Notes: generated from the sequence alone by a model not told the origin. 64,000 nucleotides of DNA from an uncultured Thiothrix sp. (GCF_937873765.1 NZ_CALMZC010000014.1:1-64000), one strand, 5' to 3'. Shown: positions 34,245 through 53,223, numbered from the stretch's first letter. Translations and numbers: made by a program.

Positions 34245-35162
34245 TTGTACGCCCTAGTGCTGGGTTCTGCTGCGGGCGGTGGATTTCCGCAGTGGAACTG
34301 TAATTGTCCAATGTGTGCAGGGGTGCGTAATGGCACAGTCCTAGCCCATGCACGCACGCAATCATCGATTGCGATTTCCACCGATAAAATTCACTGGCTC
34401 TTAGTGAACGCGTCTCCCGATATTCGTACCCAAGTCAATACCCTGCATCAATACCTACAACCGGCACGTGCTTTGCGTGATACAGGCATTAGTGCGGTAT
34501 TACTTGCGGATAGCCAAATTGACCATACCACGGGTCTATTAATTCTGCGTGAAAGCAAGCAGCCCTTGGAGTTGTATTGTACTAATAGTGTTTACGAAGA
34601 TTTAACGACTGGCTTTCCGGTATTGAATATGCTCTCGTATTATTGTGGGGTGAATCGACATGTTTTACCGTTGGATGGTTCGGCCTTAAGTATTCCTAAG
34701 CTCGAAAATCTACGTATCACACCTGTGCCACTTCACAGTAAAGCTCCACCCTATTCACCACACCGCAATCATCCTAGCGAGGATGATAATCTTGGCTTTT
34801 GGTTTGAGGATACACAAAGTGGTGGTAAATTATTCTATGCTCCCGGTTTAGGTGAAATTGAAGCGCATTTGCGCCCTTATTTTGAAAATGCTGATTGTGT
34901 ATTAGTCGATGGTACCTGCTGGACGGATGACGAAATGTCGCGGCGTCAAGTTGGCTATAAGCTTGCACGTGAAATGGGACATTTATCACAATCGGGTGAG
35001 GGTGGCATGATTGAATGGCTCGCGAATTTCCCCGATACCCGCAAGATTCTTATCCATATTAATAATACTAATCCAATTTTAGATGAAAACTCCGCAGAAC
35101 GTGCAGAGCTGACGGCGGCTGGGATTGAAATGTCGTTTGATGGGATGCTTTTAGAGCTGTAA
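34245..35162 (+). CDS. pqqB: PqqB, metallo-beta-lactamase-fold PQQ biosynthesis protein
   Basis: 305 residues from TTG 34245, the only start that gives the family N-terminus ([20 protein letters not shown]). A CxCxxC-type zinc site (NCNCPMC) and 'ASPDIRTQ', '[15 protein letters not shown]' are PqqB hallmarks. It is now thought to hydroxylate the cross-linked PqqA tyrosine. Overlapping operon position after pqqA2; a terminator follows. Confidence 0.92.
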
Positions 35163-41209: not shown

Positions 41210-41947
41210 ATGACTGTCGATTGGACCCCCGTTGAATTTGAACAGCAATTACGCACTTTAGGGCGTTATTACCATATTCACCACCCCTTTCAAGTCCTGA
41301 TGTATGAAGGCAAACTCAATGCTGAACAGTTACGTGGCTGGGTAGCGAATCGCTTTTATTATCAAGTCACTATTCCGCGTAAAGATGCGGCGCTATTGTT
41401 TAATTGTCCTGATCGGGAAGTACGACGCCAATGGATTCAGCGTATTCTCGATCACGATGGTGGCCCAAGTGCAGGGCATATTTCTGATGGTGGCATCGAA
41501 GCGTGGATTCGTTTAGGTGAAGCTTGTGGTGTACCACGTGAAGAGTTACTCGATCAGCGTCATGTATTACCGGGGGTGCGCTTTGCGGTCGATGCTTATA
41601 TTAATTTTGTGCATCACGCTGATTGGCGCGAGGGTGTTTGTTCGTCTTTAACCGAGTTATTTGCTCCCACCGCGCATAAGCAGCGGCTGCAAAGTTGGCC
41701 GGATCATTATCCGTGGATTGACAATGCTGGTTTGCAATATTTCCGTAATCGTTTAACAGAAGCACATCGCGATGTAGACCATGGTTTAGCTTTGACCTTG
41801 CAGCATTTTACTACATATGAGCAGCAGCAACGTGCCTTACAGATTTTAAAATTTAAGCTCGATGTACTCTGGTCAATGCTGGATGCCATTTATCTCGCCT
41901 ACGTGCAAAACATGCCGCCGTATTTCAATGTGGAGGAGCCTGCATGA
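41210..41947 (+). CDS. pqqC: PqqC, pyrroloquinoline-quinone synthase
   Basis: 245 residues, RBS AGAGGAG. The family stretch '[33 protein letters not shown]' (read in pieces), 'RILDHDG', 'DAYINFV' and '[11 protein letters not shown]' show the conserved active-site His, Tyr and Arg. It performs the last ring closure and eight-electron oxidation by O2 that yields PQQ. Overlaps pqqD by four bases. Confidence 0.95.
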
Positions 41948-42216
41948 GTGTTGATTTCAAAGCTGTACCGCGTTTAGCAACGGGCTATCGGTTTCAATGG
42001 GAAGAAGCGCAGCAAAATCATGTACTGCTCTATCCCGAAGGCATGGTGCAATTGAGTGATACGGCTGCGGCAGTGCTATCTTTATGTGATGGTAAGCGCA
42101 CAGTGGAAGCGATTGTGGCAGAGTTGGAAGAGGATTATGAAACTGAGGGCTTGGATGAAGATGTCACTCAATTTTTAACCGAAGCCGAAGCTCAAGGCTG
42201 GGTTAAGTATGGCTAA
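41944..42216 (+). CDS. pqqD: PqqD, PqqA-binding chaperone
   Basis: 90 residues with the RRE (RiPP recognition element) fold: '[33 protein letters not shown]' (read in pieces). It presents the PqqA peptide to the radical-SAM enzyme PqqE. It overlaps pqqC and pqqE, which ensures joint translation. Confidence 0.93.
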
Positions 42217-43315
42217 GATTCCACCGCCATTGTGGCTCTTGGCTGAAGTCACCCATTCTTGCCCGTTGCAATGCCCGTATTGTAGTAATCCACTTGATTT
42301 AGTACCGAAAAAAGATGAGCTAGATACCGAAGGCTGGCTCAAGGTTTTGCATCAAGCCCGCAAAATGGGTGCAGCCCAACTGGGCTTTTCCGGCGGTGAG
42401 CCTTTAGTGCGTAAAGATTTAGAAGTGCTAATTGCTGAGGCGCGCAAACTTGGTTATTACAGCAATCTGATTACCTCAGGCGTGGGCATGGATGCAGCAC
42501 GGGTAGAGAAATTTCGCGAGCTGGGTTTAGATCATATTCAAGTGAGCTTCCAAGCGGACGATGCGACTTTAAATGATTATTTGGCAGGCACGAATGCTTT
42601 CCAGCATAAATTGGAGATGGCACGTGCCGTGAAAGCGAGCGGTTACCCGATGGTATTGTGCTTTGTAATTCATCGCCAAAATACTGATCGAGTGGCGCAA
42701 ATGCTGGATTTAGCTGCTGAATTACAAGCCGATTATGTGGAGTTGGCGACCACCCAATTTGAAGGTTGGGCGCTAGCAAATCGCGATCATTTATTACCAA
42801 GTTTAGATCAAGTCCGCGAAGCAGAGCGCATCGCCCATGCTTGTCAAGAAACATACAAAGGCAAAATGAAGATTTATTATGTCGTGCCTGATTATTACGA
42901 AAAGCGCCCAAAAGCTTGTGTTGCGGGTTGGGGGAGAGTGTTTTTAGCAGTTGCACCGGATGGTTTAGTGCTGCCGTGTCACTCTGCACGTAGTTTACCC
43001 AATTTAGAATTACATAACGTGCGTGACCACGATTTAGAGTGGATTTGGTATGAATCTAAAGCTTTTAATTATTTCCGTGGCGAAGACTGGATGAAGGAGC
43101 CTTGCCGCACTTGTGATGAGCGTGAGAAGGATTTTGGCGGTTGCCATTGTCAGGCGTTTAAGCTCACCGGTGATCCAACTAATGCTGATCCAACTTGTGC
43201 AAAATCGCCGCATCATCATTTGATTGAGCAAGCGATTGATACCACTCGTCTTAACCCTAGCAATTCTAAGCCCTTGCTGTTTAGAAAAAGGCAGAATAAT
43301 ACCAATTTAAGTTGA
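42209..43315 (+). CDS. pqqE: PqqE, radical SAM PqqA cross-linking enzyme
   Basis: 368 residues. Radical-SAM Cys18-x3-Cys22-x2-Cys25 (HSCPLQCPYC) and FSGGEPL. The SPASM region with auxiliary cluster Cys residues is 'CVAGWGRVFLAVAPDGLVLPCHSA', then 'CRTCDEREKDFGGCHCQAF' and a late Cys. It forms the C-C bond between Glu and Tyr of PqqA. No pqqF protease gene is in the window. Confidence 0.95.
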   Translation: MAKIPPPLWLLAEVTHSCPLQCPYCSNPLDLVPKKDELDTEGWLKVLHQARKMGAAQLGFSGGEPLVRKDLEVLIAEARKLGYYSNLITSGVGMDAARVEKFRELGLDHIQVSFQADDATLNDYLAGTNAFQHKLEMARAVKASGYPMVLCFVIHRQNTDRVAQMLDLAAELQADYVELATTQFEGWALANRDHLLPSLDQVREAERIAHACQETYKGKMKIYYVVPDYYEKRPKACVAGWGRVFLAVAPDGLVLPCHSARSLPNLELHNVRDHDLEWIWYESKAFNYFRGEDWMKEPCRTCDEREKDFGGCHCQAFKLTGDPTNADPTCAKSPHHHLIEQAIDTTRLNPSNSKPLLFRKRQNNTNLS

Positions 43316-44823: not shown

Positions 44824-46581
44824 ATGAAGTCTGGTGATTTATTTCGTAAGGTATTATTAGCATCTGCGATTAGCTTCGCTTTAACATCCGCACCATTAAT
44901 GGCGGCAGTCACTGATCAAGATATTGCTAATGATGCCACCACGCCTAATGATGTAGTGAGTTATGGTTTAGGTTTGCAAGGCCAGCGTTTTAGCCCGTTA
45001 GATAAACTCAATACTGACACGGTTAAAAACTTAATACCTGCCTTTGTATTATCTTATGGTGATGAAAAGCAACGTGGTCAAGAAGCTCAACCTTTAGTTC
45101 ACAATGGTAAAATTTTCGTAACTGCTTCGTATTCACGGGTATTTACTGTTGATGCGAAAACAGGTGAAGAATTATGGCAATATGATCACCGCTTACCTGA
45201 TGGTATTTTACCTTGCTGCGATGTAGTTAATCGTGGTGGTGCGCTTTATGATAATCTCTTTATTTTCTCAACCCTCGATGCTCAGTTAGTTGCTCTTGAC
45301 CAAGATACCGGCAAGGTGGTTTGGAAAGAGAAAATGGAAGATTATAAAGCAGGCTATTCAAATACAGCCGCTCCGATTGTTGTCAATGGCAAAGTTATTA
45401 CCGGTGTCTCTGGTGGTGAATTCGGTATCGTCGGTAAGGTCGAAGCACGTGATGCGAAAACGGGTAAATTAATTTGGATGCGCCCTACTGTTGAAGGCCA
45501 TATGGGCACGTTAGACGGTAAAGATAATGGCATCACTGGCGAAACTAATAAATCATGGCCGGGTGATTTATGGAAAACGGGTGGTGCTGCTACTTGGTTA
45601 GGTGGTACTTATGATGCTGAAACGAATACACTTTTCTTCGGTACAGGTAATCCAGCTCCGTGGAATTCACATTTACGTCCCGGCGATAACTTATACTCAT
45701 CTTCTGTCTTAGCGATTAATCCCGATGACGGCAAAATTAAATGGAGCTATCAATGGACTCCACACGATGGTTGGGATTTTGACGGTGTAAATGAGTTTGT
45801 CTCCTTTGATTTAAAACAAGCTGATGGCAAAGTTATTAAAGCGGGTGGCCACGCAGATCGGAATGGCTTCTTCTATGTATTAGATCGTACTAACGGTCAA
45901 TTAATCAGTGCTAATCCTTTTGTTAATAAAATTACTTGGGCTAAAGGAATTGATCTAAAAACAGGTCGTCCTGAATATGATGATGCTAATCGCCCAGGTG
46001 CTCCAAGTGCTGCTGAGAAAGGTCAATCGGTGTTTTCTGCCCCTTCCTTCCTAGGTGGTAAAAACTGGATGCCCATGGCCTATAATCCGAACACCGATTT
46101 ATTCTATGTACCTTCTAACGAATGGGGTATGGATATTTGGAACGAGCCGATTAGTTATAAGAAAGGTGCTGCTTATTTGGGTGCTGGCTTTACGATTAAA
46201 CCTTTGAATGAAGATTACATTGGTGCTTTACGGGCGATGGATCCAAAGACTGGGAAAGTTGTTTGGGAAGCAAAAAATAAAGCACCATTATGGGGTGGGG
46301 TATTAACAACGGCTGGTAATTTAGTATTTACCGGTACACCCGAAGGCTATTTAAAAGCCTTTGATGCTAAAACGGGTCAAGAACTATGGAAATTCCAAAC
46401 AGGTTCTGGGGTAGTAGGTTGTCCTATTACTTGGGAACAGGATGGTGAGCAATTCGTTGCTGTACCTTCTGGCTGGGGTGGTGCTGTTCCATTATGGGGT
46501 GGTGAAGTTGCAAAAAGCGTTAAGCATTTAAATCAAGGTGGTAGTTTATGGGTATTTAAATTACCTAAAACTCCTTCTTAA
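44824..46581 (+). CDS. pedH: PQQ-dependent alcohol dehydrogenase, lanthanide-type
   Basis: 585 residues. Signal peptide ends PLMAA; eight-bladed propeller tryptophan motifs recur (for example 'AKTGEELWQ', 'PDDGKIKWS', 'PKTGKVVWE', '[10 protein letters not shown]'). The adjacent-Cys disulfide is Cys131-Cys132. The metal-site residues appear as Glu199, Asn276 and the catalytic Asp318, with a second Asp at 320 (GWDFDG). That extra Asp is diagnostic of XoxF/PedH-type lanthanide enzymes; calcium enzymes have Ser, Ala or Thr there. It oxidises ethanol or other alcohols in the periplasm and passes electrons to cytochrome c. No second, calcium-type paralogue is in the window. Confidence 0.88.
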
Positions 46582-46653: not shown

Positions 46654-47484
46654 ATGCAACGCACACTTCTTTTAACACGGATTTGTGGTGCTCTTTTGTT
46701 AGCAAGTACCATGCAAGTTTGGGCTCACGGTGATGTTACTCCACAGGCCATTGATATTACTGGTTTAGAGCCGATTAAGGATTCTGATACGACTTGGGTG
46801 GATACTAACCCTTACTCAGGTAATGAAAAAGCCATTGAAATTGGTAAGCATGCTTTTGCGCAAAACTGTGCACGTTGCCACGGTATTGATGCCATTTCGG
46901 GTGGGATTGCGCCTGATTTGCGTGAAAGGTTACCATTAGGTCAAGAAGGCGATGATATTTTTAAAGAACGGATGATCAATGGTGCTATTCGTAATGGCGT
47001 TACTTATATGCCAAAGTTTGATGGCATTGTAAAGCAAGAAGGTCTATGGGCTATTCGTGCTTGGTTGGAAACGGTGTCTGTAGATGCACCAGTAAAAACA
47101 GCCGTTCCAGCGACTACCACTCCAGCCGCAGCCGCTCCTGTGGCAAGTGTCGCTCCTGCAGTGGCACGTGCGGGTGAAGAGGTTTTTAATACTGTGTGCA
47201 CGGCTTGCCATACGGCAGGTATTTTAAATGCGCCTAAAATTGGTGATAAAGCCGCTTGGGAGCCACGTGCAGCTAAAGGTCTATCGGGTTTATTAGCTTC
47301 AAGTGTGAATGGTTTAAATCAGATGCCTGCCAAAGGTGGTAATCCTAGTTTGACTGAACAAGAATTAAGTAATGCTATTATTTATATGCTAGGGAAAGCT
47401 GACATTGAATTAGATAAGGCGGCTAGCACCGCAGATGCCACAACTCCAACTGCAGTGGATACCGCTAAACCGGCAACAAATTAA
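46654..47484 (+). CDS. Two-domain cytochrome c: PedF-like c550 fused to a c5-type domain
   Basis: 276 residues with a signal peptide ending VWA-HG. The first heme motif, CARCH (Cys72-His76), sits in the PedF/cytochrome c550 pattern 'HGDVTPQAIDITGLE' and 'ISGGIAPDLRE', with Met119 (YMP) as sixth ligand. An Ala/Pro/Thr-rich linker of about 30 residues follows. The second motif, CTACH (Cys182-His186), with Met224, is a cytochrome c5-type domain ('APKIGDKAAWEPRAAKGL'). Usual PedF proteins have one domain. It probably takes electrons from the PQQ dehydrogenase and hands them on. Confidence 0.85.
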   Translation: MQRTLLLTRICGALLLASTMQVWAHGDVTPQAIDITGLEPIKDSDTTWVDTNPYSGNEKAIEIGKHAFAQNCARCHGIDAISGGIAPDLRERLPLGQEGDDIFKERMINGAIRNGVTYMPKFDGIVKQEGLWAIRAWLETVSVDAPVKTAVPATTTPAAAAPVASVAPAVARAGEEVFNTVCTACHTAGILNAPKIGDKAAWEPRAAKGLSGLLASSVNGLNQMPAKGGNPSLTEQELSNAIIYMLGKADIELDKAASTADATTPTAVDTAKPATN

Positions 47485-47556: not shown

Positions 47557-48420
47557 ATGAATATGAGAGTGTTAGCGAGTGTAACTTTAAGCTTAAGTCT
47601 GGTGGCTTCGAGCTTATTCGCAGCGGGCTTAGATGATATTAAAAATAAAGGTGTACTAAGCGTCTCTTTATATAAAGATTTCCCCCCTTATTCTTATGTG
47701 GCTGACGGCAAGCAAACGGGTATTGATGTCGATATTGCTAATGCTTTAGCCGCCAAGCTAGGTGTTAGTAGCCAAATTCGCTTAGTCGGGGCGGATGAAA
47801 ATGTCGAAGATGATTTACGCAATAATGTCTGGAAGGGCCATTATTTGGGCGGTGGTGTCACTGACTTAATGTTGCATATGCCAGTCGATAATGCCTTCGC
47901 GGAAAAAGTGGACAAAGTAAAGTTCATTGCGCCTTATCAATTGGAACAAGTGGCTTTTGCGTTTGATACCAATAAAGTCGGTAAGCAGCCCACTTTAGCC
48001 AATTTTATGAGTGATTCGATTGGGGTTGAAATCGATACTCTCAGCGATGTGTATTTGTTAGAAGCGATGCAGGGGCAAATTAGTAAAAATATACGCCACT
48101 TTGAAAATCTCAGTAAAGCGACTACTGCTTTGAAAGCGGGTGAGATAGCCGGTGTAATGGGGCCACGTGGTGAGCTAGAAGGTTTATTAGCAGAACACCC
48201 CGATACCATTCAAATTCAATCTTTAGTCACACCGGGGTTAGCGCGTTCTAATTGGGCGATGGGTATTGCAGTCAAAGCGGATAATGAAGAGTTAGTAAAG
48301 GCTATTAACGAGAGCATGGCAGCTTTAGTAAAAGATGGCACGGTGAAAAAGATTTTTGAACAATATAAGGTCACCTATACTCCCCCTGCAATTGCACCCG
48401 AGGTGACTGCTAAAAACTGA
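47557..48420 (+). CDS. MoxJ/XoxJ-like periplasmic binding protein of quinoprotein systems
   Basis: 287 residues, signal peptide ending LFAA. SBP_bac_3 fold: 'GVLSVSLYKDFPPYSYV', 'GIDVDIANALAAKLG'. The insert 'NNVWKGHYLGGGVTDLMLHMPVD' is shared by the binding proteins that accompany PQQ dehydrogenases and is not found in amino-acid importers. No ABC permease is nearby. It is thought to aid maturation of the dehydrogenase rather than transport. Confidence 0.83.
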   Translation: MNMRVLASVTLSLSLVASSLFAAGLDDIKNKGVLSVSLYKDFPPYSYVADGKQTGIDVDIANALAAKLGVSSQIRLVGADENVEDDLRNNVWKGHYLGGGVTDLMLHMPVDNAFAEKVDKVKFIAPYQLEQVAFAFDTNKVGKQPTLANFMSDSIGVEIDTLSDVYLLEAMQGQISKNIRHFENLSKATTALKAGEIAGVMGPRGELEGLLAEHPDTIQIQSLVTPGLARSNWAMGIAVKADNEELVKAINESMAALVKDGTVKKIFEQYKVTYTPPAIAPEVTAKN

Positions 48421-48427
48421 GGTAGCT

Positions 48428-49177
48428 ATGCGCCCCTTATTTGTGTTCCTCCTAACATCACTGCTCAGTCCATTAGGCTGGGCAGTTGATTCTGATCCTT
48501 TAAACTCGCCACAATGGGAGTTTGTGCATCAGCGTTTTCTAAAAGGTGAGTCTTATCAGTTTGACGGTAAAGTCAAAGTTGAAGCGCCTGCGGATGCCGA
48601 AGATTCCTTAAATGTACCCATTTCTTTCCAAGTCGATGATTTAGAAAACATACAAGAAGTTGTGGTGGTTGCTGATCTCAATCCCATTCCACAAGTTCTA
48701 CGCTTTCGCCCTAAAGCAATGCGCCCACATTTAGGTTTTCGTATGAAGTTGCAACAAGGTAGCCCGATTCATGTGGCCGCTAAAACTGCAGATGGGCTTT
48801 GGCATGTGGGTGGAGTGTGGGTTAATGCTGCGGGTGGTGGTTGTACCTTACCGAGTGTCGGGACAGCTTCAGGGGATTGGACGAAAACCTTAGGGAAGGT
48901 ATCTGCCAATGTTTGGCAACGTCCAGATGGTTCGAGTCGCTTGCGGGTACGGGTGATGCATCCGATGGATACCGGCTTAGCATCAGGCATTCCAACTTTT
49001 CATATTGAGAATCTGAATGTTTTGGGTGAAGACGGTCAGCTCCTCGCTGAGTTGGATTTATTCGAGCCGATTAGCGAAAACCCGATGCTTAGTTTTGATG
49101 TACACCAGCAAAAGCAATTCAAATTAGAAGGCCGTGATAATAATGGCAATAAGATTCAAGCTGAGGTGGTGCAATGA
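48428..49177 (+). CDS. Quinoprotein-associated SoxYZ-like carrier
   Basis: 249 residues with signal peptide (LGWAV). N-terminal part SoxY-like, ending AAGGGCTLPS with a single Cys139, which stands where SoxY carries its covalent substrate. C-terminal part SoxZ-like ('VMHPMDTGL'). The fused arrangement matches the family found only next to PQQ alcohol dehydrogenases. Possible carrier of a reactive intermediate for the metallohydrolase that follows with a 4-base overlap. Confidence 0.85.
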   Translation: MRPLFVFLLTSLLSPLGWAVDSDPLNSPQWEFVHQRFLKGESYQFDGKVKVEAPADAEDSLNVPISFQVDDLENIQEVVVVADLNPIPQVLRFRPKAMRPHLGFRMKLQQGSPIHVAAKTADGLWHVGGVWVNAAGGGCTLPSVGTASGDWTKTLGKVSANVWQRPDGSSRLRVRVMHPMDTGLASGIPTFHIENLNVLGEDGQLLAELDLFEPISENPMLSFDVHQQKQFKLEGRDNNGNKIQAEVVQ

Positions 49178-50109
49178 AGCGGTTTTGGTGGCTCGGCTTA
49201 TTCGCTGCAAGCACACAGTTAACGGCTGCCAGTTTTGAATATCCACTGCAACCGCAAGCCATCGCGCCAGATACCTTCGTTTTGGAAGGCAAAACTGCAG
49301 ATTTCAGCAAGGAAAACGGTGGTTATATTGTCAATGCAGCTTATATCGTTACTAACGATGGCGTCGTTGTAATTGATACTGGCCCTTCTCGGCGGTTTGG
49401 CGAACAGCAACGCGCTTTGATCGAGCAAACAACGGGGAAAAAAGTGATTCGGGTGTATATTACCCATCATCATCCTGACCATTTCTTGGGTAATCAAGCC
49501 TTCACGGATTTGCCGATCTATGCGCTACCAGCAACGATCCAAGGTGTACAGCGTGAAGGCGAGACATTCAGCAATAATATGTATCGGCTGATTGGCGATT
49601 GGATGCGTGATACCAGTGTGATCGCACCCAATCAAGAGGCTAAACTGGGTCGTGAAGTGATTGGTGGGCATGAACTAGAGCTCTTAGCCTTTAAAGGGCA
49701 TACACACGCCGATTTAGTGATGTTTGACCATACGACGGGTGTACTGTTTGCGGGTGATTTGGTATTTAATCAACGTGCGGCCACCACGCCGCATGCGAAT
49801 ATTATCGACTGGCTAGCTTCGCTTGAGCAGCTCTTAAAACTACCATTTAAGGTCTTAGTACCGGGTCATGGTAAAGTCACTCAAGATGATCAGCCGATTG
49901 CACAAACACGTGCTTATTTAGTGTGGCTGCAAACGCTACTCCAGCAAGCGGCTGCCAATGGTTTAGATATGAATGAAGTGATGGCAACACCGATTCCGGC
50001 TGATTTCAAGGATATTGCTTTAGCCCAAAATGAGCTACGCCGTTCGGTCGCACATTTATACCCAGCTTTAGAAGCCGAGCAACTTAAACCAACTAAGCAG
50101 GCGGAATGA
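49174..50109 (+). CDS. Quinoprotein relay system zinc metallohydrolase
   Basis: 311 residues with signal peptide. Metallo-beta-lactamase motif His98-x-His100-x-Asp102-His103 (THHHPDH), further ligands in FKGHTHAD and FAGDLVF, and VPGHG. Related to SoxH. In such operons it accompanies the SoxYZ-like carrier and may release its cargo by hydrolysis. Reaction unproven. Confidence 0.85.
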   Translation: MKRFWWLGLFAASTQLTAASFEYPLQPQAIAPDTFVLEGKTADFSKENGGYIVNAAYIVTNDGVVVIDTGPSRRFGEQQRALIEQTTGKKVIRVYITHHHPDHFLGNQAFTDLPIYALPATIQGVQREGETFSNNMYRLIGDWMRDTSVIAPNQEAKLGREVIGGHELELLAFKGHTHADLVMFDHTTGVLFAGDLVFNQRAATTPHANIIDWLASLEQLLKLPFKVLVPGHGKVTQDDQPIAQTRAYLVWLQTLLQQAAANGLDMNEVMATPIPADFKDIALAQNELRRSVAHLYPALEAEQLKPTKQAE

Positions 50110-50663
50110 GAGTTTGGCTATTACTGATACTAAGTTGGAGTATTTTCAGTTGTCAGGCTGAAGACTGTGTGCGTACCCCACAAATGCCTGAGGGTTTAAA
50201 ACAAGAGCATTATCGTAGCCCCACCCCTGCTTGTGTACCCAATGGTATTACTCTGAAAACAGCAGAGTTACAAAAGCTGATTGAAACCAAGCAGCCCATT
50301 CTCATTGATGTCATGGCAGTTTTCTTGCGGGAAGATGAAGGTTTCCCAGCAACTTGGTTAGTGAATGAACCCCATGAGAGTTTGCCGAATAGTATCTGGC
50401 TGCCTAATGTCGGCTATGGTGTGTTAGAGCCAAAAATCGAAGCTTGGTTTAAAGCACAATTAGCTAGCCTCACTAAAAATGATCTCCATCAAGCCTTAGT
50501 CTTTTATTGCGTTGCCGATTGTTGGATGTCGTGGAATGCCGTGCAGCGCGTGCGTGAGTATGGTTATACGCGAGTGTATTGGTACAAAGATGGGATTGAT
50601 GGCTGGAAAGAAGCTGGTTTGCCAACGGTTAAAACTGAACCTCAAACCTTTACCTCAAACTAA
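50106..50663 (+). CDS. PQQ-dependent catabolism-associated CXXCW-type rhodanese protein
   Basis: 185 residues, N-terminal signal ending FSCQAED. Rhodanese-like fold with the hallmark 'YCVADCWMSWNAV' (Cys135, Cys139, Trp140). The family occurs with PQQ alcohol catabolism and probably handles a sulfur or redox step with the SoxYZ-like carrier. It overlaps the metallohydrolase gene by four bases. Confidence 0.85.
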   Translation: MRVWLLLILSWSIFSCQAEDCVRTPQMPEGLKQEHYRSPTPACVPNGITLKTAELQKLIETKQPILIDVMAVFLREDEGFPATWLVNEPHESLPNSIWLPNVGYGVLEPKIEAWFKAQLASLTKNDLHQALVFYCVADCWMSWNAVQRVREYGYTRVYWYKDGIDGWKEAGLPTVKTEPQTFTSN

Positions 50664-50684: not shown

Positions 50685-51368
50685 ATGAGCAAACAAGCTT
50701 GGATCTTGCCGCTACAATGGTTATGGCTGTTTGGCCTGTTGCTGGTGAGTTTAGGACTGCTTTGGGATAATGGGATTCTGCAAGTGATGTTTGCCACCGA
50801 TAACACCTATCTGTGCCCTTTGATGGTGTGGGTATTTCTGTTGACTTGTTTACATTGTGGTTACCGTAGTCTATTTCTAGCCCGACAAGCTAAGGTCGTA
50901 CATGCTTGGCCGCATACCGGTGTTCTAGACGATAAGATCCTAATTAAGCGCTACCTCAACGAGTTGCAGACCATTCCCAATCCACAAGATAAACAGCTAA
51001 CGGCTGAGTTATTAGCGGAGGAATTACGTGGTCAGCACCAAGTCGGCTGGTTTGTCACTGGTTTGCTGATCAAGTTAGGTTTGCTCGGAACGGTAGTCGG
51101 CTTCGTGATTATGCTCGGCTCCATGACTCATCTATCTTCCCTTGATATTGCTGAAGTCCAAACGCTGATGCAGCAAATGACTCAAGGGATGAAGATTGCG
51201 CTGAATACCACCATCATTGGTTTGGTTGGCAGCATCTTTTTAGGTTTGCAATATTTACTGCTCGACCGTGCGGCGGATCAGCTCCTAGTCGCTGCGGTAC
51301 AAGCTAGCCAATTGCCAGCAGTAAACAGTGTAGACACGAGTGCTGAGGTGGCACATGGCACTGTTTAA
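50685..51368 (+). CDS. MotA/TolQ/ExbB-family proton-channel protein
   Basis: 227 residues, RBS GGGAG. Four hydrophobic helices at about 9-28, 42-60, 120-148 and 175-200. The last two carry the family pattern 'VGWFVTGLLIKLGLLGTVVGFVIML' and 'MTQGMKIALNTTIIGLVGSIFLGLQ' (read in pieces), with the conserved Gly-Thr-Val-Gly and TxxG residues of TolQ/ExbB channels. It should form a proton-driven motor with the next protein. It is encoded 21 bases after the CXXCW gene, so it appears to belong to the PQQ accessory operon. Confidence 0.8.
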   Translation: MSKQAWILPLQWLWLFGLLLVSLGLLWDNGILQVMFATDNTYLCPLMVWVFLLTCLHCGYRSLFLARQAKVVHAWPHTGVLDDKILIKRYLNELQTIPNPQDKQLTAELLAEELRGQHQVGWFVTGLLIKLGLLGTVVGFVIMLGSMTHLSSLDIAEVQTLMQQMTQGMKIALNTTIIGLVGSIFLGLQYLLLDRAADQLLVAAVQASQLPAVNSVDTSAEVAHGTV

Positions 51369-51966
51369 ACAGCGCGAGAATCTACTCGATGTTGACCCTT
51401 TTACTGATCTGCTATTCAACGCACTGTTAACCTTTACCTTTCTGTTTCTGATTGCATTATTGCTAATGAATCCCACTGCCAAGAGCGGGATTATTAATCC
51501 GAAAGCGGAGTTGATGATCACTGTTAGTTGGCCAGACAATAGCCCTGATGATATTGATACTTGGGTAGAAGGGCCAAAAGGGCAAATGATTTGGTTTAAG
51601 CGTCCGCAAGAGGGCTTGATGCATTTAGATCGGGATGATCGTGGGGCTGTGAATGATATGCAACTGATTGATGGCAAGGAAATTATTAATCCGCTCAATC
51701 AGGAAATTGTCACGATACGCGGACGTCCTCCGGGCGAATTCACCGTGAATATCCATTATTATCGTAGCCAAACCTTAAAAGCAGTACCTGTCACCGTTTA
51801 TCTCGCCGAAGTCAATCCCACGCTCAAAGTCTTACACTATGCAACGACCACTTTGCAGCGCGAAAGTGAGGAACGTACCGCCGTGCGTTTTAGTATTACT
51901 CCGAATGGTCAAGTCACGGATATTAATACCCTACAAAAATCCCTCGTTCTGGGAGGTAAAATATGA
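51355..51966 (+). CDS. TolR/ExbD-like protein with YfaP/DUF2135-like periplasmic domain
   Basis: 203 residues from ATG 51355, overlapping the channel gene by 14 bp. One helix (about 20-40) is preceded by 'VDPFTDLLFNALLTF' with Asp18 where TolR/ExbD/MotB have their proton-carrying Asp. The periplasmic part starts 'ITVSWPDNSPDDIDTWVEGPKG', then 'LDRDDRGAV' and 'PPGEFTVNIHYYRS', a pattern like the DUF2135/YfaP beta-sandwich. Ordinary TolR and ExbD have no such domain. A specialised energy-transducing stator is the best reading. Confidence 0.72.
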   Translation: MALFKQRENLLDVDPFTDLLFNALLTFTFLFLIALLLMNPTAKSGIINPKAELMITVSWPDNSPDDIDTWVEGPKGQMIWFKRPQEGLMHLDRDDRGAVNDMQLIDGKEIINPLNQEIVTIRGRPPGEFTVNIHYYRSQTLKAVPVTVYLAEVNPTLKVLHYATTTLQRESEERTAVRFSITPNGQVTDINTLQKSLVLGGKI

Positions 51967-52481
51967 ATGAACTACTCATGCTCTTAGTGGTAGCCTATAT
52001 TTTTCTTGCAGCCCTTTTAGTCTTGGTCTTGTTGTATGGACGGCTTCCTTGGCTACTGAAATTACTGTTGGTGTTGATCACAACAGGCTTGTATTGGGTC
52101 AGTTATCAAGGTTGGAAAGAAGTACAAGGTTGGCCTAGTCAAGTCGAGTTACCTACAAAGTTTTTGCTGCATGCTTCGGTGATTGAAGAACCGAATCAGG
52201 AAGCAGGGACGACAGGGCGAATTTTTATCTGGGCCTCAAATTTAAAAGGCAATAAACCAGCAGGCGAGCCACGTGCCTATATCATCCCCTATGACCGCGA
52301 AGTGCATTCATCCTTACAGGATGCGCTGCGCAATCAGCGTAATGGCAATGTGCAAATCGGCGTGAAAGAGCGTAATAAAAATGTGCAAAACGAAGCACCC
52401 GTCAATGTACGCCAGTTGGGGCAAATTCATGAAAAACTCAAATTTATTGAGTTACCTGACCCTGCTTTACCTGAGAAATAA
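51963..52481 (+). CDS. Membrane protein of the TolQR-like module, unknown function
   Basis: 172 residues. Two hydrophobic helices (about 4-24 and 30-46), then a soluble, probably periplasmic region with no family I recognise ('IFIWASNLKGNKPAGEPRAYIIPYDREVH'; a long Asn/Arg-rich stretch at about 120-145). It starts inside the previous stop (ATGA) and ends two bases before the lipoprotein gene, so it is a fixed member of the four-gene set. Confidence 0.7.
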   Translation: MNELLMLLVVAYIFLAALLVLVLLYGRLPWLLKLLLVLITTGLYWVSYQGWKEVQGWPSQVELPTKFLLHASVIEEPNQEAGTTGRIFIWASNLKGNKPAGEPRAYIIPYDREVHSSLQDALRNQRNGNVQIGVKERNKNVQNEAPVNVRQLGQIHEKLKFIELPDPALPEK

Positions 52482-52483
52482 TC

Positions 52484-53188
52484 ATGGGGCGCTTAACCCT
52501 TATTTTATTTTGCCTGAGTGTGTTAGCTGCCTGTGATAAGCCTGCTAGCGATGATTATTTTCCTTTGCATCAAGGCTTGCATTGGGAATATCAAGTAACC
52601 ATTGAGCATCCTGAACGCTTAGATACCAAGCAGCTTATAATTGAAAGCATCGGGCAAACGAGTTTAAAAGAAGAAACCGTTAGCATTCGCACGACTAGCG
52701 ATGGTACGGATTATTATCTTGCCCAGCGTACTGATGGCATTTATCGTTTGGCTAAACGTACCTTGGTGGAAAGTGAACCACGTTTAGACGCTAGCCCACG
52801 CATGGTCTTACCGCTGCCGATTGCACAAGCGGAAGGCAAAACGTGGTCGACGATTTCCCAGCCTTATTTAATTGAGCGTGTGTATGAGGGCATGGACGTG
52901 ATGACGGCTGACATGCTGCAATTCCCGATGACCTATTCGGTGTTGAGTTTGGATGAAACGGTTGAGGTCAGCGCAGGTCGTTTCAGTTATTGCATTTTAG
53001 TGGAAGGGCAAACCGATTTATCGTTATATGCGGATGCGCGCACGGGCAATACGACCGTACCGATCACTACCCGTGAATGGTATGCACCGGGTGTCGGCTT
53101 GGTGAAATTAGAGCGCGAAGAGCCTTTGAATACCGATGTGTATAAGGGTGGGAAGATTACGATGGAATTGGTGAGGTTTGAGGATTAG
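52484..53188 (+). CDS. Putative lipoprotein of the TolQR-like module
   Basis: 234 residues. Signal peptide with lipobox VLAAC (Cys about 16); the residues after Cys are Asp-Lys, and Asp at +2 favours inner-membrane retention. The mature part begins 'YFPLHQGLHWEYQV' and is beta-rich, like DUF3108-type lipoproteins. It may be the periplasmic partner or sensor of the proton-channel proteins. Last gene before a terminator. Confidence 0.68.
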   Translation: MGRLTLILFCLSVLAACDKPASDDYFPLHQGLHWEYQVTIEHPERLDTKQLIIESIGQTSLKEETVSIRTTSDGTDYYLAQRTDGIYRLAKRTLVESEPRLDASPRMVLPLPIAQAEGKTWSTISQPYLIERVYEGMDVMTADMLQFPMTYSVLSLDETVEVSAGRFSYCILVEGQTDLSLYADARTGNTTVPITTREWYAPGVGLVKLEREEPLNTDVYKGGKITMELVRFED

Positions 53189-53199
53189 CTGATAAGAGC

Positions 53200-53223
53200 A
53201 AGAGGCAAGATAACCTGCCTCTT
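53200..53223. terminator. Bidirectional terminator
   Basis: AAGAGGCA and TGCCTCTT form an 8-bp stem with an 8-base loop, between the convergent lipoprotein and dctM genes. Confidence 0.7.

Follow-up and report, generated by a model that had tools for sequence, protein, structure and literature searches.

A TolQ/TolR-like gene module with a predicted TerD-like periplasmic domain, shared by bacteriophages and by PQQ and lanthanide loci of Thiotrichaceae

A four-gene module encoding TolQ- and TolR-like proteins, a membrane protein (g3) and a lipoprotein (g4) was analysed in an uncultured Thiothrix sp. (NZ_CALMZC010000014.1:1-64000; this whole stretch of 64,000 nucleotides (nt) is referred to as the window), where it occupies positions 50,685-53,188, directly downstream of a pyrroloquinoline quinone (PQQ) alcohol dehydrogenase (ADH) operon and on the same strand. 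Among named organisms, the closest relative retrieved was Thiothrix eikelboomii. The module appears to belong to the Exb/Tol/Mot type, its axle domain being new and its third gene fixed, and to have spread among phages and been recruited to PQQ and lanthanide (Ln) loci. We consider the chances about even that its products form an ion-driven complex of the MotA/TolQ/ExbB type, and that the four-gene version was recruited to PQQ- and Ln-dependent alcohol oxidation in Thiotrichaceae and in Burkholderiales-like bacteria. An initial annotation, made from the sequence of the window, had proposed an undescribed TolQ/TolR-like module at this position. This proposal is borne out in part, in that the genes are co-conserved, their placement as TolQ/TolR-like and as neither TonB, Tol-Pal, Mot nor Zorya is supported, and no paper describing the module was found in the open-access literature.

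The TolQ-like protein exceeded the cut-off of the Pfam family MotA_ExbB (PF01618; 37.3 against 22.9 bits), which places it in the MotA/TolQ/ExbB superfamily, and is one of three PF01618 proteins encoded by the genome. Its hydrophobic stretches, near residues 7-36, 41-59, 126-144 and 171-193, are consistent with four helices and agree with the four-helix channel protein first proposed; against the sequences of solved structures only a weak MotA match was retrieved (E 0.024). The ion-path threonines Thr136 and Thr176 were invariant in all 36 TolQ sequences of an alignment of Thiothrix and phage proteins. The TolR-like protein has a single transmembrane (TM) helix at residues 15-38, bearing Asp18 within DPFTDLLFN, followed by a periplasmic beta-sandwich at residues 52-191. 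Asp18 was conserved in all 56 rows that could be read in the Thiothrix-plus-phage alignment and in 20 of the 25 rows of a second one, the remaining five being alphaproteobacterial (f49) rows with valine. Because these signature residues of TolQ and TolR are combined with established knowledge of the superfamily, the complex is predicted to be proton-driven.

The structures of TolR and g3 were examined as single-chain predictions. The AlphaFold model of TolR (predicted local distance difference test score, pLDDT, 88) was compared to known folds with VIA-align, in which the six best rows scored Z 9.3-11.3 (values of 11.3, 10.4, 10.1 and 9.3 over 130-140 residues among them) and the next group 5.9. 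Four of these six were TerD-family rows (3ibz, 2qng/SAV2460, 2qz7 and 2kxt, the Ca-binding TerD of Klebsiella), with 2qng, titled only ‘unknown function’, counted in the family by its Streptomyces relatives; the other two were a GLPD-SCP2 model and a radial-spoke protein. The TerD signal came solely from VIA-align, as Foldseek searches against the PDB returned nothing at E<=0.001. Alignment with hhalign to a shallow TerD alignment gave a probability of 0.3%, and against solved-structure sequences TolR retrieved only an unconvincing phage structural protein (E 0.6). The domain had initially been described as a DUF2135/YfaP-like sandwich; the helix with its Asp18 stood, and the DUF2135 (PF09906) label was rejected, with 17.2 bits against a cut-off of 22, matches at E<=1 in 5/22 members and a weak, C-terminal likeness (E 0.001-0.005). 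Nor does the domain fit OmpA or TolR/ExbD. Since profiles did not support TerD, Foldseek was not significant and DUF2135 fell below its cut-off, we limit the claim to a predicted TerD-like fold. Residues W59, D66, D68, D94, D95, G97, E117, G127 and E173 were invariant across bacterial and phage TolR sequences, and the acidic cluster, as placed in this modelled fold, suggests a site for a di- or trivalent metal.

The TerD family is associated with tellurium resistance and Ca2+ binding. The TolR domain resembles it in predicted fold and in conserved acidic residues, but is membrane-anchored, periplasmic and fused to a stator helix.

The third protein, g3, was modelled with two helices (residues 3-25 and 30-54), and a small periplasmic OB-like domain made up of residues 64-135, approximately, together with a C-terminal strand (pLDDT 81). 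It had no Pfam family above cut-off, as anticipated for a two-helix protein of no known family, and Foldseek against the PDB returned nothing at E<=0.001; the OB-like matches were weak (Z<8) and may reflect just a common arrangement. The predicted lipoprotein g4 does carry a lipobox (LAAC, with Asp at +2). The residue after the lipobox cysteine differs among its homologues, which leaves the target membrane of g4 uncertain. PF21347 (DUF3108-like) matched 7/7 g4 members (best 1.6e-7), the protein of the window itself reaching 24.1 bits against a cut-off of 27, and DUF3108-type lipoproteins were also retrieved from solved-structure sequences (E about 0.2).

The distribution of the module was investigated in 63 Thiotrichaceae genomes and in a sample of 398 Pseudomonadota genomes. 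TolR matches at E<=0.01 were retrieved from 22/63 Thiotrichaceae genomes, one of them very weak. Two types could be distinguished: type A, with TolR 68-92% identical to that of the window and with g4, in eight genomes, and type B, with TolR 40-46% identical and without g4, in 15 genomes; two genomes contain both types. A separate search for g4 retrieved the eight type A genomes and no others. In the Pseudomonadota sample a strong module was found in 14 genomes, namely the window's own, three Burkholderiales-like genomes (of one gammaproteobacterial family) with the four-gene form, and ten large genomes of one alphaproteobacterial family (L089-L097, L100; Bradyrhizobium-like by inference) with a three-gene form; g4 was found in four module genomes of this sample, along with two weak partial matches. 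In most cases the alphaproteobacterial trio adjoins a divergent histidine kinase/response regulator pair, and the trio is also carried by Azospirillum megaplasmids.

The order TolQ-TolR-g3 was kept in every bacterial locus with enough flanking sequence, and the third gene of the core was always g3. Such conservation, seen in loci of Thiotrichaceae, Burkholderiales-like bacteria, alphaproteobacteria and phages, goes far beyond what chance would give. The check proposed in the initial annotation, co-occurrence of the genes in other genomes, thus found the three core genes co-conserved, and scattering was not seen for the four-gene form.

The four-gene form is linked to PQQ-dependent oxidation and Ln transport. 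Associations were assessed with Fisher tests, whose p-values are made optimistic by the kinship of the genomes. A PQQ-ADH above the TIGR03075 cut-off was encoded by 8/8 type A genomes, compared with 11/55 other Thiotrichaceae genomes (p=2e-5), and PedC (TIGR03861), the permease of the lanthanide transporter PedA1A2BC (PMC12997753), by 8/8 and 8/55, respectively (p=3e-6). Type B showed no such association (PQQ-ADH in 5/15, p=0.5). An ADH gene was found no more than about 16 kb away at all seven type A loci that could be tested, and no more than about 31 kb from the module in all three Burkholderiales-like genomes; in the phylum sample an ADH was encoded by 14/14 strong carriers versus 81/384 others.

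The arrangements differ. In the window and in L028 the module directly follows the gene for the CXXCW protein, whilst in L029 (from the family scan) and L030 (by similarity) it lies between pedC and pedA2-pedA1, and in L032-L034 close to exaA and to a sulfonate/taurine-like ABC transporter. Among the Burkholderiales-like genomes, G081 has the order pqqB-pqqC-pqqE-TolQ-TolR-g3-g4, and the module of G293 is surrounded by a relay metallohydrolase, a PqqU-like TonB receptor that scores below NCBI's cut-off, a second TonB receptor, a histidine kinase/response regulator pair and exaA. The link to PQQ genes is thus seen in two or more separate lineages, whose gene orders differ. Two TonB-dependent receptors flank the module locus near exaA in L088:1724-14088, the PqqU-like one matching at E 1e-145, below NCBI's cut-off.

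The neighbourhood of PQQ-ADH, c550, SoxYZ, MBL, rhodanese and pedA1A2BC is that of the known ped/lut systems (PedA1A2BC, LutH-LutAEF), but a review of the ped genes published in 2026 mentions neither TolQ nor ExbB. In Methylomicrobium alcaliphilum, MEALZ_3990/3991 of the MotA/TolQ/ExbB family are down with La relative to Ca (PMC6277846), and in P. putida the outer-membrane step of Ln uptake has been left unresolved (PMC12997753).

The three-gene core is apparently a common, unreported cassette in bacteriophages. Scanning IMG/VR with a TolR profile returned 83 related stretches, with identities to TolR of the window reaching 44-46%, and TolQ, TolR and g3 were found in order at 76 of the 84 phage-side loci (L103-L186, including the cultured Rhizobium phages L105 and L106); at the others, one gene was missing at the contig end or below detection. 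Roughly 80 viral contigs thus contain the trio, and 27 records of cultured rhizobial phages contain the TolR gene, in no case with a functional annotation; among these is the classical phage 16-3, where TolR is p040 and g3 is p042. A match was obtained to phrog_1735 (E 4e-5), a family of unknown function. At several loci the neighbours encode a T4-type major head protein, tail tube, DNA polymerase and UvsY, and no single gene neighboured the module in all viral contigs. A Rhizobium-type prophage (L099:8810-13329) encodes a trypsin-like protease, TolQ, TolR and g3 and, further off, an endolysin; a trypsin-like protease gene also lies near the trio in phages 16-3 and RHph_N3_13.

In the TolR tree, a single clade (support 0.86) united the modules of bacteria, namely types A and B and those of Burkholderiales-like and alphaproteobacterial (f49) genomes, and lay within mostly phage diversity; the support of the four-gene clade was only 0.55, and the tree was midpoint-rooted, so that no direction of transfer can be read from it. 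This nesting, together with the frequency of the core in viral contigs and rhizobial phages and its structural and replication neighbours there, would suit a device of phage origin concerned with envelope integrity or phage interaction (superinfection exclusion, lysis timing or protection) and merely located in PQQ loci. We hold this explanation to be possible, though doubtful, as linkage of the four-gene form to PQQ and Ln genes persists across two lineages and four or more arrangements, the 84 phage-side loci yielded no g4, and neither an integrase nor a phage gene was noticed next to the module of the window.

Type B loci (L035-L049) lie beside a gene for either a periplasmic rhodanese or a DsbH/DUF255 thioredoxin, and BolA-, TusA- and cation-efflux-like genes, named by eye, often occur with them. 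The module could accordingly be a periplasmic thiol or sulfur relay with rhodanese- or thioredoxin-like partners, acting in PQQ loci with the SoxYZ-MBL-CXXCW relay on the disulfide or cofactor of the dehydrogenase; a periplasmic rhodanese gene is found directly upstream of TolQ in the window as well as in several type B loci, and SoxYZ and the metallohydrolase are encoded in the same operon. However, the rhodaneses of type B show a likeness of only about 30% to the CXXCW protein, over a third of it, and carry CNGMWC rather than CVADCW, and no rhodanese adjoins the module in phage and alphaproteobacterial loci or in the Thiotrichaceae PQQ loci L032-L034. A thiol relay consequently seems improbable to us.

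Comparisons with characterised ion-driven systems were also made. No TonB, TolA, OmpA or MotB domain was found above cut-off in the module by Pfam and NCBIfam scans, as the initial annotation had stated. Tol-Pal was rejected, TolA, TolB and Pal not being recognised in the gene maps of the window, type A or type B; so was ExbBD-TonB, with a TonB C-terminal match of merely E 0.17 (12.8 against 24.6 bits), and a MotB/OmpA-like stator, given no OmpA Pfam match and a TolR model that is a TerD-like sandwich. With the ‘generic ion transporters’ ExbBD, TolQR and AglRS (5:2; PMC12505986, PMC9389320) the module shares an A-subunit with ion-path threonines and an adjacent one-helix B-subunit with a key aspartate. 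It differs from them in the TerD-like end of the B-subunit and the fixed third gene (two TM helices and an OB-like domain), and in lacking TonB, TolA and Pal. A paper on MotAB relatives mentions generic ion transporters that bear unknown domains (PMC12505986), and a search of that paper for the terms phage and PQQ retrieved no phage-borne or PQQ-linked module.

The closest named families of TolQ in PADLOC and NCBIfam were the ZorA models, which would point to a Zorya-like anti-phage system. These matches were confined to a short MotA-like core and, at 20-25 bits, lay far under the cut-off. The long ZorA tail was absent, as were ZorB with its OmpA-like domain, ZorC, ZorD and ZorE, the effector genes included, and phages themselves carry the core. 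Gene content thus largely refutes a Zorya-like system, and we regard it as very improbable.

Against recruitment of an ion-driven complex to PQQ and Ln oxidation stand several observations. Many genomes of the family with PQQ-ADH/PedC have no four-gene module (G039, G043, G049-G053, G056), from which it follows that the module is an accessory and not a requirement. The motif WD[FY]DG, carried by the ADHs of genomes with the module, appears to correspond to the lanthanide-associated Asp of PedH, for which PedE has Ser (PMC5487730); it is also found in ADHs of module-free genomes, and is hence no discriminator. The cores of phages and type B have no PQQ link. Their occurrence, as well as that in Azospirillum, without PQQ genes indicates a general device that was recruited to PQQ loci and was not PQQ-specific by origin. 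The attachment to PQQ proposed in the initial annotation accordingly holds for the four-gene form, and not for a system that is PQQ-related by nature. The ion-path residues also vary: Burkholderiales-like TolQ has Lys at Thr136, and alphaproteobacterial TolR (L089-L097, L100) has Val for Asp18 and Lys for Asn22, so that ion flow may not be universal and the alphaproteobacterial ion path may have been altered or lost. Lastly, no sequence homology of TolR to TerD (PF02342) was found, either by profile comparison or as a Pfam match.

The genes of the window are listed in Table 1. The four open reading frames were found where the initial annotation had placed them, except that alignment favours a TolR start at ATG 51355, where all close homologues begin, over GTG 51340. 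TolQ starts 21 nt past the PQQ_CXXCW gene, with AGGGAG just upstream; with the favoured start it overlaps TolR by 14 nt, TolR overlaps g3 by 4 nt, and g3 and g4 are separated by 2 nt. A pattern scan for consensus terminators detected no plus-strand terminator-like element in the 21-nt gap, in keeping with the absence of a terminator stated in the initial annotation. The pedC gene of this genome lies 18 kb downstream of the module. The interval between pqqB and pqqC holds an operon for a ribose-type ABC transporter, which includes a LacI regulator (window:35893-40634, named by eye). Directly downstream of g4, convergent genes on the minus strand (window:53236-58714, by eye) encode a TRAP transporter, a split transketolase and a short-chain dehydrogenase, and a short inverted repeat (53200-53223) separates g4 from the TRAP transporter genes.

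Table 1. Features of the module and of the PQQ genes in the Thiothrix sp. window
Feature	Coordinates	Strand	Basis
TolQ-like (MotA/TolQ/ExbB) channel subunit, 227 amino acids	50685..51368	+	PF01618, conservation
TolR-like stator subunit, 203 amino acids	51355..51966	+	AlphaFold model, VIA-align, conservation
g3, two-helix membrane protein with OB-like domain, 172 amino acids	51963..52481	+	Model, synteny
g4, DUF3108-like lipoprotein, 234 amino acids	52484..53188	+	PF21347 matches, distribution, lipobox
PQQ_CXXCW rhodanese-like periplasmic protein	50106..50663	+	TIGR03865, 197 bits (cut-off 128)
Quinoprotein relay system zinc metallohydrolase 1	49174..50109	+	TIGR04558, 428 bits
Quinoprotein dehydrogenase-associated SoxYZ-like carrier	48428..49177	+	TIGR04557, 215 bits
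Family 3 periplasmic solute-binding protein (PedG position)	47557..48420	+	PF00497, 62.9 bits
Cytochrome c550 PedF with second cytochrome c domain	46654..47484	+	TIGR04494, 182 bits; PF00034
PQQ-dependent alcohol dehydrogenase (exaA-type), WDFDG motif, predicted lanthanide type	44824..46581	+	TIGR03075, 797 bits
pqqB	34245..35162	+	By eye and homologues in PQQ loci of relatives
pqqC	41210..41947	+	By eye and homologues in PQQ loci of relatives
pqqE	42209..43315	+	By eye and homologues in PQQ loci of relatives

For the ion-driven complex that we favour, a mechanism can be proposed. TolQ-like subunits would form a channel wheel in the inner membrane around a TolR-like dimer as axle, presumably in a 5:2 assembly, and protons passing Asp18 and the TolQ threonines would move this axle. 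The axle would end in the acid-rich, TerD-like periplasmic sandwich, in place of a peptidoglycan-binding or TolR/ExbD domain, with g3 as a membrane partner bearing a small OB-like domain and g4 as the outer partner of the complex in the Thiothrix clade. The three-gene core may be a general envelope device common to bacteria and phages, from which the four-gene version would use the proton-motive force (PMF) in the periplasm for the uptake of metal (Ln3+/Ca2+) or PQQ, or for its hand-over to the dehydrogenase. Most likely, type A modules would serve Ln/PQQ oxidation through such uptake or hand-over of metal or cofactor. Carried further, and only tentatively, the module may represent an undescribed, phage-spread family of ion-driven machines with a proton-moved, metal-binding sandwich, domesticated with the addition of a lipoprotein as a PMF-powered Ln/PQQ delivery device, which might be the energised step missing from Ln entry in bacteria that have no LutH.

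To our knowledge, a function is established for only a handful of ion-driven complexes of the 5:2 type (flagella, Ton, Tol, gliding, type IX secretion and Zorya). If the reading given here is correct, a distinct family would be added to these, whose periplasmic domain is new and whose third partner is fixed, and one of its branches would be tied to lanthanide/PQQ oxidation. Phages would likewise be shown to carry such machines, with cultured rhizobial phages such as 16-3 as experimentally accessible carriers.

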